33,220 nucleotides of DNA from IMG/VR virus record IMGVR_UViG_3300046028_001730, positions 1-33,220 of that record; one strand, given 5' to 3'. This DNA is from a virus. A program made the position numbers and the translations under genes. Below, in pieces: positions 4,286-8,134 of the stretch. Positions within the stretch are counted from its first letter, which is position 1. Every line of letters starts with the position of its first letter. The notes below the pieces were generated by a model. That model was not told the DNA's origin. It saw nothing but the letters and a program-made list of their open reading frames with translations, and did not search any database.

Positions 4286-4472
4286 ATTACCGTACACCAT
4301 CACGATCTGCCCAGATGAGCCGAATCCAAAACAGTTCACGGCGCTAACGCCAGCGATTGTTCGTGCGCTGCGGTACACAAACGACTTGACCATAGACCAG
4401 CGCCAGCACGTTTACCCATCAGCGCCGCAGGGGGTGACAAGCATTAATACGCATAAGGAAAAAAATACATGA
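4278..4472 (+). CDS. Small hypothetical protein, 64 aa
   Basis: The ATG at 4278 follows AAGGAGGAGAAAAGC, a very strong ribosome binding site that overlaps the end of the previous gene. The product has a short beta-like start (KLPYTITICPDEPNP) and a helical middle (ALTPAIVRALRYTND). The stop overlaps the next ATG (ATGA at 4469-4472). No motif is recognised. Confidence 0.6.
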   Translation: MAKLPYTITICPDEPNPKQFTALTPAIVRALRYTNDLTIDQRQHVYPSAPQGVTSINTHKEKNT

Positions 4473-5101
4473 GCTACGTCGTGGCCTCGTTGCCGCCAAT
4501 TAAGTGTTTCGTAAGGCGGGAGTTCCTATACAACTTCACGAAGGGGCATGGCGAACTGGAGCCAGCAATCTGGGTGAGCATCAAAGCCCTACGGGGGCAG
4601 GTGTTCCGCATCGAGTCGCTGCTGCCTAACTATGGCGCTTTGTATGACAAGCTGCCGATCCACGCTTATGTGTGGACAGAGGATCACGGCGACCTGCCTA
4701 TCGATACCTTGCAGCTATGGGATTGCATGGGCTATCGCTTCACCGTGGTGGAGAAGATCGGCTTGCGCAATCTGGGCGTCAAGTTCTTGGGCAAGGACAA
4801 GGAGTGGCACTTCGGGCGGTATATGTTCACGGTGGACTTCTGCGCTGATGGCATGGAGGTAGACACTGGCTTTACTGAGCAGGCCGAGGAGCATAAGAGC
4901 TTCAACTTCATTGCACTGGACAACGGGCAGTTTGCCGCGCAGCCGAACAATCGGTGCCTGTGGTATGACCAGAGCCTGATCCCTGCTGAGACAAAGTTCC
5001 CTGACTTTCAGGCGGCGCAGAAGTTCTGGACGGTAGACGGCACCCGCAAGTGGTCAGCAGGTGACGATTGGTTTTATAACATAGAGGAGAAAAACACATG
5101 A
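4469..5101 (+). CDS. Conserved phage protein of unknown function, 210 aa
   Basis: This is the largest protein of the island, with an ATGA overlap at both ends. It is beta-rich with many aromatic residues; recognisable stretches are IKCFVRREFLYNF, GELEPAIWVSIKALRG, YGALYDKLPIHAYVW and NGQFAAQPNNRCLWYDQSL. From memory this protein is very widely conserved in environmental tailed phages and often found among small early genes, yet has no assigned function. No catalytic motif is evident to me. Its conservation and length compared with its neighbours suggest a core role, perhaps in host takeover or nucleic-acid metabolism; that is inference. Confidence 0.75.
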   Translation: MSYVVASLPPIKCFVRREFLYNFTKGHGELEPAIWVSIKALRGQVFRIESLLPNYGALYDKLPIHAYVWTEDHGDLPIDTLQLWDCMGYRFTVVEKIGLRNLGVKFLGKDKEWHFGRYMFTVDFCADGMEVDTGFTEQAEEHKSFNFIALDNGQFAAQPNNRCLWYDQSLIPAETKFPDFQAAQKFWTVDGTRKWSAGDDWFYNIEEKNT

Positions 5102-5310: not shown

Positions 5311-5486
5311 AGTTGCTGGTTCTTGTATACTATGGGCTGGTTGGGATCATCGCATTCTGCTGTTTTGTGTATGTGTTGACCAACCCGCCCAAGCCGCAGA
5401 TCCAGTGTACAGTGGCGGAGATCAGTCCAGACTTTTCGACGCAGGACAGGGAGTATTGCCGTAGGTTAAGGGCGCATAAGCTTTGA
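5307..5486 (+). CDS. Small membrane protein, 59 aa
   Basis: The ATG at 5307 overlaps the previous stop (ATGA) with AGAGGAAA upstream. Residues 3-24 (LLVLVYYGLVGIIAFCCFVYVL) form one membrane span, followed by a polar tail with two further cysteines. Such a short N-terminal span with a small soluble tail could be an inner-membrane effector or a lysis-accessory protein, but the genes around it give no support. It is the last gene before the 450-base non-coding region. Confidence 0.6.
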   Translation: MKLLVLVYYGLVGIIAFCCFVYVLTNPPKPQIQCTVAEISPDFSTQDREYCRRLRAHKL

Positions 5487-5879
5487 CATTACTTTGCGGT
5501 AACGCAATGCCGCGAAGCAAGAAGTGTGGAGATTGTTTTAGCCGTTATGGAGACATAAGTGGCGGACATAGGTACTAGGTAACCGTTTCGGTCTAGTTAT
5601 GGGCAGTCTCTACACTTGTTGGTAAGAAAGGGTGAGCGCCGAGTTCGCATAGGCTCTATACATGGATTGCGACGCTACCAACAGCCAAGACGCATGATCA
5701 TTGCCGGACGCGAAAGCGCAAAGCGGACTAACCCAGAAGCGGAAAGCCCCAAGTTCTAGACACCTTGGCGGTAGCAAGACGGGGAAATAGCAGTGGTCAG
5801 CCGTGTTGGGAAAGCTGCCTCAACCGTTTCCAGCGGGAGTTATGCTCCTGAGCGCGAGACGGCGAGTACCAACACCTCA
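5487..5879 (+). ncRNA. Putative large structured RNA upstream of terminase genes
   Basis: This 390-base stretch has no credible gene on either strand but has many complementary segments. The best are: an 11-bp helix 5522-5532/5607-5617 with one G-U pair, extendable inward; TGTTGGTA (5617-5624) with TACCAACA (5676-5683); ACTAG/CTAGT and ACCG/CGGT within 5574-5597; GCC and TTAT pairing within 5541-5563; TTGCG-GTAA-CGCAA (5494-5507); CGC-GAAA-GCG (5709-5718); CCAAG/CTTGG (5749-5768); CAAGACGG/CCGTGTTG (5775-5808, one mismatch); GGGAG/CTCCT (5835-5849). GCCGCG (5509-5514) can close the domain with CG and CGGC at 5855-5863. Two GNRA-type tetraloops hint at tertiary contacts. It does not show RNase P, tmRNA, group I intron or tRNA core motifs that I can find. 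Possible roles are a packaging RNA or site, a terminase mRNA leader, or a GOLLD/ROOL-like phage RNA. Confidence 0.65.
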
Positions 5880-5908
5880 TTGCAAGGGATTGATGTAACA
5901 GGTATATT
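5880..5908 (+). promoter_or_regulatory. Putative sigma70-type promoter P3 for the packaging operon
   Basis: TTGCAA (5880-5885, 4 of 6 matches) is separated by exactly 17 bases from TATATT (5903-5908, 5 of 6). A start near 5915 would give a short leader before the small terminase gene. It lies just outside the structured RNA, so the packaging genes may be transcribed both from here and by read-through. Confidence 0.55.
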
Positions 5909-5922: not shown

Positions 5923-5937
5923 TACCGGAGACTGATG

Positions 5938-6453
5938 ATGTCTGAGCCTTCCGACCCAGCCGACCAAATTGCCGCCGAGCAACAGAAGCCCCGAAAGAAG
6001 ATGGGGCGACCATCCAAGTACACCCAAGAGCTAGCCGCAGAGATATGCGAGAGACTATCTAACGGAGAGCCATTACGACGTATATGCAGAGACGACCATA
6101 TGCCGTCGTGGGTCAGTATTTACGCTTGGGCTGCTGCCGATAAGGAACTTTCTGAACGCATCGCACAGGCGCGTGAGCAGGGCGCTGACGCCATCGCTGA
6201 GGAGGCGCTGGAGATCATCGACACGCCGCCCGAGTACGTCCTGACCAAGACCGGCGAATCCGTTGATTCGGGCTATGTGACATGGCAGCGCAACCGCGCC
6301 GACCTGCGCTTGAGGCTGCTGGCTAAGTGGCACCCAAAGAAGTACGGCGACCGCCAGATCTTGGCTGGTGACGCTGAGAACCCGCTGACGACTAGCCCCG
6401 ACGCCTCCTTTGTGGCTGACCTGATCGCCAAGATCGAGGCGACAAAGCGGTGA
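5938..6453 (+). CDS. terS: Terminase small subunit
   Basis: This is the DNA-recognition subunit of the packaging motor. The 171-residue protein has a basic linker with GRPSKYT (residues 23-29), then a helix-turn-helix region (about 29-68: ELAAEICERLSNGEPLRRIC, then WVSIYAWAAADKELSERIAQ). This is typical of Sf6-type small terminases, which form rings that bind the packaging site. The C-terminal part (KWHPKKYGDRQ) fits the same family. ATG 5938 is chosen because CGGAG lies 7-8 bases upstream; ATG 5935 is an alternative. It directly precedes the large subunit, separated by one small gene. Confidence 0.85.
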   Translation: MSEPSDPADQIAAEQQKPRKKMGRPSKYTQELAAEICERLSNGEPLRRICRDDHMPSWVSIYAWAAADKELSERIAQAREQGADAIAEEALEIIDTPPEYVLTKTGESVDSGYVTWQRNRADLRLRLLAKWHPKKYGDRQILAGDAENPLTTSPDASFVADLIAKIEATKR

Positions 6454-6626
6454 CCCCGCGAGAGTTCATTGAGTGGTTCCGGGACGATCAGAAGATCGAC
6501 GGGATGCGCGTCGCTGGCATCATGACCCCGGAAGGCATGATCGACCTTGATGACATCACCGACGAGGAGGCCGAGGCCATCGCCGAGAAGATCATGTTCT
6601 GTTACAGCACTAGGGGCAACGCATGA
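6450..6626 (+). CDS. Small acidic protein between terminase genes, 58 aa
   Basis: It starts at GTG 6450 in a GTGA overlap with the small terminase and ends in an ATGA overlap with the large terminase, which strongly supports the frame. The product is acidic, with a tail of alternating Asp/Glu and Ala (DDITDEEAEAIAEKI). No motif is recognised. Its position suggests a packaging-accessory role or simply a spacer gene; function unknown. Confidence 0.6.
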   Translation: MTPREFIEWFRDDQKIDGMRVAGIMTPEGMIDLDDITDEEAEAIAEKIMFCYSTRGNA

Positions 6627-8134
6627 CCGAGCCTGTCGTTGACCGCAAGGTAGCCGCCGAGTATGCGCAGCAGGAGATCAAGACCCTGCTGGACTGCTCG
6701 CTTGAGGAGAAGCTTGCCAAGCTCCCCCGGATACAGCGGATCGCCTACGAGTGGCGCTTGCGCTGGCTGGTATCGGCTCACAAGCATCAGATCCTACCTG
6801 CCGGTGACGCTTGGACGATCTGGCTGATGCTTGCAGGCCGGGGTGCCGGGAAGACCCGCACCGCAGCCGAGCAGCTAGGCTGGTGGGCATGGAGCGAGCC
6901 AAATACCCGCTGGCTGGTGGCGGCTCCGACCAGTTCGGATGTGCAGGGCGTCTGCTTTGAGGGTGAGTCAGGGCTGCTGTCCGTCATCCCGCCTGAGTTG
7001 ATCAAGGATTACAAGGTGCAGAAGTGCGAGATCCACCTGATCAACAAGTCCATCATCAAGGGCATCCCGGCGTCCGAGCCTGAGCGGTTCCGAGGCCCGC
7101 AGTTCCACGGTGGCTGGTTCGACGAGTTGGCTGCGTGGGATTACATCGACGATGCGTGGGACATGATCCAGTTCGGTCAACGTCTGGGCGACCGAGTCCG
7201 CCAGATAGCCACCACGACCCCGAGGCCGAAGGCGCTGATCAGGAGCCTGATTGCCCGCAACGGCAAGGACGTAGCCGTCACGACCGCCTCGACCTATGAC
7301 AACATTGACAACCTCGCGCCGCAGTTCCAGCAGCAGATCCTGCAATACGAGGGCAGCAAGATCGGGCGACAGGAGATCTACGCCGAGCTTCTGAACCCGG
7401 AAGAGGATGGCATCATCAAGCGCCAGTGGCTGAAGGTCTGGCCTGCTGATAAGCCGCTGCCCGAGTTCGAGTACATCATCATGTCGCTCGACACCGCATT
7501 CACCGAGAAGACCACCGACAAGAAGGGCGACGCCGACCCGAGCGCCTGTTCGGTCTGGGGCTACTTCAAGCACGACAAGAAGCCCGCTATCCTGCTGCTC
7601 GACTGTTGGGAGGAGCATCTAGGCTTACCTGACCTGATCGCTCGCGTGAAGCAGGAGATGAGCGTCCAGTACGGTCAGGGCGACATGAAGCCAGTGATTA
7701 AGCCGATGATTGGCCCGAAGTCATCTTACCTCGTAGGCCGCAAGCCTGACCTGCTGCTGATCGAGGACAAGGGATCGGGTATTAGCCTGCGGCAGATGCT
7801 GGCGAGAGAAGAGATCCTCGCCTACCCGTACAACCCCGGCAAGGCAGACAAGCTGGCTCGACTGCATATGGTCTCGCACATATTTGCGCATGGTTATGTT
7901 TGGGTGGTAGAGTCTGAAAAGCGTCCGGGTCAGATCAAGACTTGGGCGGAGCCGCTTGTAGCGCAGCTTTGCAGTTTTACTGGCGAGCGGTCGATCAAGC
8001 ATGACGACCTGATGGACTCGACCACGCAAGCAGTCCGCTTCCTAAGCGACCGCAATATGCTAACGGTCACAGTCAAGCAGCTTGAGCGCAAGATCGCACC
8101 GCCGAAAGAATACGTCAATCCGTATGCAATCTAA
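6623..8134 (+). CDS. terL: Terminase large subunit (packaging ATPase and nuclease)
   Basis: The 503-residue packaging motor drives DNA into the capsid and cuts concatemers. The ATPase domain has Walker A GRGAGKT (72-78), Walker B ending WFDE (D167, E168) and a TTTP coupling motif (197-200). The RNase H-like nuclease domain shows D290 in IMSLDTAF, the acidic pair E381-D382 in LLIEDKGSG, and D461/D462 in KHDDLMDS. All expected catalytic residues are present and the length is normal for the family, so it should be active. It belongs to the Terminase_6 type. The start is in an ATGA overlap. It works with the portal encoded next. Confidence 0.95.
   Translation: MTEPVVDRKVAAEYAQQEIKTLLDCSLEEKLAKLPRIQRIAYEWRLRWLVSAHKHQILPAGDAWTIWLMLAGRGAGKTRTAAEQLGWWAWSEPNTRWLVAAPTSSDVQGVCFEGESGLLSVIPPELIKDYKVQKCEIHLINKSIIKGIPASEPERFRGPQFHGGWFDELAAWDYIDDAWDMIQFGQRLGDRVRQIATTTPRPKALIRSLIARNGKDVAVTTASTYDNIDNLAPQFQQQILQYEGSKIGRQEIYAELLNPEEDGIIKRQWLKVWPADKPLPEFEYIIMSLDTAFTEKTTDKKGDADPSACSVWGYFKHDKKPAILLLDCWEEHLGLPDLIARVKQEMSVQYGQGDMKPVIKPMIGPKSSYLVGRKPDLLLIEDKGSGISLRQMLAREEILAYPYNPGKADKLARLHMVSHIFAHGYVWVVESEKRPGQIKTWAEPLVAQLCSFTGERSIKHDDLMDSTTQAVRFLSDRNMLTVTVKQLERKIAPPKEYVNPYAI

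Follow-up and report, generated by a model that had tools for sequence, protein, structure and literature searches.

Arrays of structured RNA modules in phages: a gene-free region upstream of terminase genes and its relatives

GOLLD and ROOL, phage RNAs that are located near tRNA islands and assemble into homo-oligomeric cages, have no known function, and GOLLD additionally carries a variable 5' region (PMC12286853). We consider them the nearest described kind to the array reported here, which occupies the studied region 5487-5879 of a 33,220-base IMG/VR virus fragment (the window, that is, the whole stretch of DNA analyzed); the setting is shared, but neither the sequence nor the architecture is. 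Like GOLLD and ROOL, the arrays of this study are phage-borne, long, elaborately structured, and found near tRNA genes, and the coexistence of conserved and variable parts recalls GOLLD. In contrast to them, these arrays lack an Rfam match, consist of a combinatorially shuffled string of inserts in repeated frames, and also precede terminase or holin genes. Type III antitoxin RNAs (ToxI repeats), repeated structured RNAs that neutralize a defense RNase (PMC5772629), are similar in concept only and differ in that the array has no identified toxin gene next to it and no demonstrated sequence relation to them. In lambdoid late regions, Pas sRNAs adjoin holin and lysozyme genes, often with STnc100 nearby, and the arrays occur in the same prophage neighborhoods as STnc100 (PMC13192938). 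One P1 module (L269:3195-3315) matched positions 31-147 of the STnc100 model (RF02076; E 3e-5); however, its score of 33.9 bits was under the family threshold of 47, and only this one module type was concerned. If this P1 module is a distant relative of STnc100, some of the class may already have been observed as isolated modules. The phi29 pRNA, the rings of which use loop-loop contacts, is likewise a structured phage RNA, and packaging genes adjoin the window array; however, no Rfam match links the two, and the arrays are not tied to terminase genes, co-location with packaging genes being present in the window but absent from the stretches read of P1, HK620, STGO-35-1, IME11, and wV8.

A search of Rfam 15 returned nothing at or above the gathering threshold in the window, and in 15 related loci only tRNAs and one distant int-alpA exceeded it. 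The GOLLD and ROOL models matched neither the window nor the related loci searched. The array frame is not present in the T4 stable RNAs C and D, and an integron attC array was rejected, since the core sites GTTRRRY / RYYYAAC were not found and the 3' ends of A modules are mostly GTTGGT. No description of the class was found in the literature, although subscription papers and preprints lay mostly outside the search and an earlier description is possible.

A chain of folded modules in the window

The + strand is free of ORFs of 60 aa or more between the upstream ORF, which ends at 5486, and terS, which starts at 5935, so the gene-free gap described in the earlier note was upheld. Within 5487-5879, no coding signal was detected, the longest stop-free frame (69 aa) falling under the mean of composition shuffles (82.5 aa). 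The minimum free energy of the + strand was -137.5 kcal/mol, whereas its shuffles averaged -125.0 (z -2.44), with none of the 100 shuffles equally stable, and the - strand of the same region reached a z of -1.48 in the shuffle comparison.

The array begins with a leading hairpin, followed by alternating modules in the order A1-B1-A2-B2 (Table 1). Two helices that the earlier note had read from the letters proved to be real: the 11-bp helix 5522-5532/5607-5617 grows to 14 pairs as the A1 stem, and the 8-bp helix 5617-5624/5676-5683 closes B1, a module also present in L229, a different phage contig that encodes tRNA-Pro and tRNA-His. A1 has the AUUG...CAGU top common to other A frames, but its lower stem differs. 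In the A2 insert, for which 26 relatives were aligned, compensatory changes occurred at columns 25-41, 26-40, 56-92, 66-86, and 67-85, with columns 56-92 divided into 14 CG and 13 GC; P4 of the window A2 contains one mismatch (5749/5769). A GNRA hairpin previously proposed at 5712-5715 is not kept as such; relatives instead pair columns 25-27 with 39-41, with compensatory changes. The P4 loop of A2 contains the palindrome TCTAGA (5755-5760), and a palindromic core (CTAG or CCGG) is kept in 27 of 27 family members; judged from sequence, this core is a possible dimer contact. The 5' end of B2 matches L010, and the TTGG[T]GAAAGC...GCGAGTACCAAC type is seen again after other A modules. A clear promoter belonging to the window array itself was not apparent. 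A partial CRISPR-DR36 match at 5879-5899 (TTGCAAGGGATTGA; E 0.08; 19.9 vs 38 bits) overlaps the promoter-like site behind the array and was judged to be chance.

Table 1. Positions of features in the window and tag-bearing C modules in other loci
Feature	Position	Strand	Details
phrog_3704 match, annotated ferredoxin	4469..5101		few genes upstream of array; E 5e-76
Hairpin H0	5491..5517	+	CUUUGCGGUA...UGCCGCGAAG; z -3.65; 94% identical in L003/L004/L005
Module A1	5522..5617	+	frame helix 5522-5535/5604-5617 (AAGUGUGGAGAUUG / CAGUCUCUACACUU); variable insert 5536-5603; z -5.04
Module B1	5617..5683	+	closed by UGUUGGUA/UACCAACA; 97% identical in L003, 91% in L229
Module A2	5685..5809	+	frame CCAAGACGCATG-ATC-ATTG (5685-5703) / CAGT-GGT-CAGCCGTGTTGG (5791-5809); insert 5704-5790
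A2 insert helix P2	5709-5711/5723-5725	+	
A2 insert helix P3	5739-5740/5774-5775	+	
A2 insert helix P4	5747-5750/5768-5771	+	
Module B2	5806..5872	+	closed by UUGG (5806-5809, common with A2 end) and CCAA (5869-5872)
Direct repeat TACCAACA	5676-5683 and 5867-5874	+	bounds A2+B2 unit; 191-base period
Promoter-like TTGCAA-17-TATATT	5880..5908	+	between array and terS; consensus match only; kept in L003
Terminase small subunit gene (terS)	5935..6453	+	phrog_1482, E 8e-38; downstream of array
Terminase large subunit gene	6623..8134	+	phrog_38, E 1.5e-27; downstream of array
Tag modules (C) in other loci	L264:3560-3860; L265:3730-3960; L267:3690-3960; L268:3710-3960; L269:1800-2060; L270:2200-2480; L424-L430		
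Ten C-module tags			ANDDVVLMAA, ANDNVFLAVA, ANDNTFLAVA, ANDAQFLAVA, ANDDLMLAAA, ANDSEVLMAA, ANDDLMMVAA, ANEEMYLAVA, ANDEQFLAVA, ANDDLMLMAA

Covarying frames, variable inserts, and module exchange

The A frame has the consensus ACGCATG-NNN-ATTG...CAGT-N'N'N'-CAGYCGTG, also written (C)CAANACGCATG-NNN-ATTG...CAGT-N'N'N'-CAGYCGTGTTGG. A search with its 3' half alone recovered at least 120 IMG/VR stretches, nearly all of which bear the matching 5' half. NNN and N'N'N' are complementary in 128 of 135 A modules, relative to a mean of 75 and a maximum of 87 in 2000 permutations. Among 49 distinct A frames, 99.0% of the cells were paired (91.9% in shuffles) and 41 double changes were counted (11.4 in shuffles), values reached by 0 of 500 shuffles; these covariation counts are inflated by sequence kinship, yet individual positions repeatedly show compensatory pairs of several types (GC, AU, CG, and UA). 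An exhaustive scan with the triplet set to GGT yielded 33 stretches, 5 of these among the first 120 matches listed, and scaling places the number of A-frame stretches in IMG/VR very roughly at ~800, with a wide error. The frame is scarce in cellular genomes: the 84,980 species searched gave 10 matches, of which one or more arose by chance; a match in a Williamsia genome, the triplets of which are non-complementary, was judged to be of this kind.

The sequences held by these frames are diverse. At a 70% identity cut-off, the inserts of 133 A modules fell into 75 families, and insert lengths across arrays ranged from 24 to 104 nt. As complete units, A modules form stable folds (mean z -3.5, with 91% below -2), and the + strand was the better folder in 35 of 40 A modules; inserts alone barely beat shuffles (mean z -0.70; reverse complements -0.49).

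Relatives of TerL and TerS were fetched from IMG/VR, and three of the resulting contigs (L003-L005) encode a TerL 98% identical to that of the window. H0, B1, and the stretch ahead of terS are retained in them, the place of A1 is taken by a different A module of 118 nt, and A2+B2 is exactly absent (query 197-387 missing), the missing unit being flanked by the repeat TACCAACA. The A2 insert was found in other surroundings too, for example in L085. Within an insert family, the following module nearly always differs: in one family 10 members preceded 9 different next modules, in another 7 preceded 7, and in each of three families 5 preceded 5. Because insert families recur with ever-changing neighbors, modules are exchanged, gained, and lost as units, plausibly via recombination in the repeated frame sequences.

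Covariation among homologs, one of the checks named in the earlier note, was found in the A frame, in P2-P4 of the A2 insert, and in the kissing-loop B module described below. The proposal of a large structured RNA, of a class that is not listed, was borne out by this covariation and by the existence of homologs. The RNA is not a single unit drawn together by a long closing helix; exchangeable modules follow one another in a string. The helix in question (5509-5514/5855-5863) is unsupported, and the nearest relatives lack approximately 5684-5873 entirely. We conclude that the window array is a chain of RNA hairpin modules on the + strand, each folding by itself, and part of a modular phage noncoding RNA, its identity as a modular structured RNA class being very probable (roughly 0.93).

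Spread in phages, genomic surroundings, and tag modules

When the complete window array was compared with isolated phages by BLAST, nothing matched. A search with the related array L213 reached isolated phages of Klebsiella, Pseudomonas, Escherichia, and Salmonella, together with P1, HK620, PY54, and BASEL Bas77-80. A sister frame, A' (CAACAGGTAAG-NNN-ATT...AGT-N'N'N'-CTTNCCGTTGTGG), and a kissing-loop B module are present in P1, HK620, N4-like, Ackermannviridae, and other phages. The A' triplets are complementary in 72 of 74 distinct modules (permutation maximum 67), and these 74 modules hold 47 insert families. The B module of the isolated-phage arrays comprises two hairpins with complementary loops (GCUGAU/AUCAGC), and both hairpins and the loop-loop helix covary, with 27 double-change cells vs 3.4 in shuffled alignments (0 of 500) and compensatory changes that include the loop-loop helix. 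A piece of HK620 containing C, A', and B modules matches 836 phage records, mostly without annotated genes there, and a larger HK620 piece matches 456 of 5426 E. coli genomes. The class is widespread, extending to hundreds of phages, and apparently uncatalogued. Hypothetical ORFs have been annotated over or across modules (Bas77_0057, L264:3594-4076; MIFENG_9, L266:4065-4262; P1 PLNCDLJO_00064, L269:2663-2836), and these small ORFs are probably not genes.

Terminase was the commonest annotated gene behind the arrays, accounting for at least 27 of 88 downstream ORFs and several unrelated terminase families, relative to an estimated few percent of cases for a random gene. The HK620 array is located between pR' and the late terminator, upstream of the holin gene, and the arrays of P1, the Felix O1-like phage wV8, and a Klebsiella Taipeivirus lie among tRNA genes. 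In Salmonella phage STGO-35-1, a C-A'-B-hairpin-tRNA-Met unit is enclosed by a promoter-like site and a terminator and is oriented against the genes on either side (z -3.8 for the array part). Arrays favor late-operon starts and tRNA regions and are bound to no single gene.

Only in an enterobacterial/Aeromonas sub-group does the first module (C) hold a tag ORF of 10 codons plus a stop, mostly after AAAU. Its carriers are lambdoid, P1, Felix O1-like, Ackermannviridae, N4-like, and Aeromonas phages, in which the module is unannotated. All tags follow the pattern AN(D/E)...AA-stop or ...AVA-stop and are near the E. coli ssrA tag, ANDENYALAA, in their AND start and hydrophobic, Ala-rich end. The C module aligns to permuted tmRNA (RF04321; E 1.2e-4 in IME11) at the tag end of the latter; the module differs from tmRNA in scoring under the Rfam threshold (best 33.1 vs 47 bits), and no tag-like frame of this kind was found in the window array. 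ARAGORN detected no tmRNA in the tag-module loci where it was run. An unannotated tRNA-like stretch (L424:1665-1743; 31.7 bits) directly follows the tag module of wV8 and could be a tRNA-like domain. Among the inserts, T-arm mimics occurred in 7 of 122 families, against 0.06 expected from shuffles, and a T-arm was absent from the other 115 as well as from the inserts of the window array. A truncated-tRNA-like A insert (L085:4088-4179, L145:3653-3742, L158:1153-1243) combines an acceptor-like stem with a T-arm and is devoid of an anticodon arm.

Proposed function and rival explanations

The frames, as helices with fixed and covarying positions, may serve as standard sockets in which the inserts sit, providing for folding, stability, and exchange. 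The array RNA would act in trans, and the inserts would be payloads with different binding partners in the host or the phage; on the sequence patterns described, we give a trans-acting RNA with interchangeable payloads about an even chance. The partners might be the translation/tRNA machinery and the defense RNases that attack it, with the inserts as mimics or decoys, and the first module in one sub-group might act as a tmRNA-like tag messenger. That the inserts are putative decoys or mimics of translation-related RNAs is our best guess, held tentatively, and it was reached because some inserts contain T-arm mimics, arrays lie among tRNA genes, and one sub-group carries a tmRNA-like tag module. 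Weighing against this explanation are the lack of a T-arm in most insert families and in the window inserts, the confinement of the tag module, as far as found, to one sub-group, the small margin by which insert folds on their own surpass shuffles, and the lack of a clear promoter for the window array.

Several other explanations were weighed. The frames could instead assemble into a multimeric scaffold or cage, with the variable inserts as cargo or surface decoration, as suggested by the precedent of GOLLD and ROOL, phage RNAs near tRNA islands that form homo-oligomeric cages (PMC12286853), by the conserved kissing loop of the B module, and by the palindromic core in the A2 P4 loop. We find this doubtful, given that the GOLLD and ROOL models did not match, that array length and module number are too variable for one fixed assembly, and that the kissing loop lies within a single module and is explicable without multimers. 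A cis-acting late leader, in which the structures would shield the late transcript, favor antitermination, or control the terminase or holin gene that follows, is unlikely: dozens of insert families would be needless for a simple leader, the STGO-35-1 unit, closed by tRNA-Met and a terminator, is oriented opposite to its neighbors, and the window has a promoter-like site between array and terS, even though the position of the HK620 array and the prevalence of downstream terminase genes would agree with such a role. Regulators acting by base pairing, or sponges for host sRNAs and mRNAs, would resemble the phage anti-sRNAs reported from lambdoid late regions (PMC4104026) and would accord with the Pas sRNAs and nearby STnc100 beside holin and lysozyme genes (PMC13192938) and with the below-threshold STnc100 likeness of the P1 module; the inserts, however, are enclosed in stable helices, and conservation resides in helices rather than in exposed seeds, which renders this explanation quite improbable.

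The position of the array before terS and terL, in the window and in many relatives, had led the earlier note to suggest a packaging RNA or packaging site. This suggestion found no support and is now very improbable, as arrays lie far from terminase genes in P1, HK620, Felix O1-like phages, Ackermannviridae, and Schitoviridae, related arrays also occur in tRNA clusters, in the HK620 late leader, and as a stand-alone antisense unit, and the closest relatives (TerL 98% identical) carry a different module set. Least probable of all is a DNA element (cruciform, recombination cassette, or attC-like site) in place of an RNA. Module exchange and terminal repeats are compatible with it, and the GTTGG/CCAAC ends recall integron core sites, but the conserved U-G wobble of the frame (39 of 49), the better folding of the + strand, and the loop-loop covariation point to RNA; moreover, the 3' ends are mostly GTTGGT rather than GTTRRRY, and no integrase gene was noticed, unsystematically, beside the arrays inspected.

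Returning to trans-acting arrays with exchangeable payloads, we tentatively propose, at somewhat less than even odds, that phages draw on a common pool of RNA payload domains, interchangeable and set in standard frames, and that the arrays expressing them would imitate or obstruct translation-related RNAs as well as the agents that attack these RNAs, one branch including a tmRNA-like tag module. If true, this would be the RNA counterpart of a gene-cassette pool. The class would add a major RNA class to the biology of phages such as P1, HK620, the Felix O1-like and N4-like phages, and the BASEL coliphages, in regions annotated as empty. The shuffling of modules makes the function directly testable, and the tag module raises the question of whether phages run their own trans-translation.
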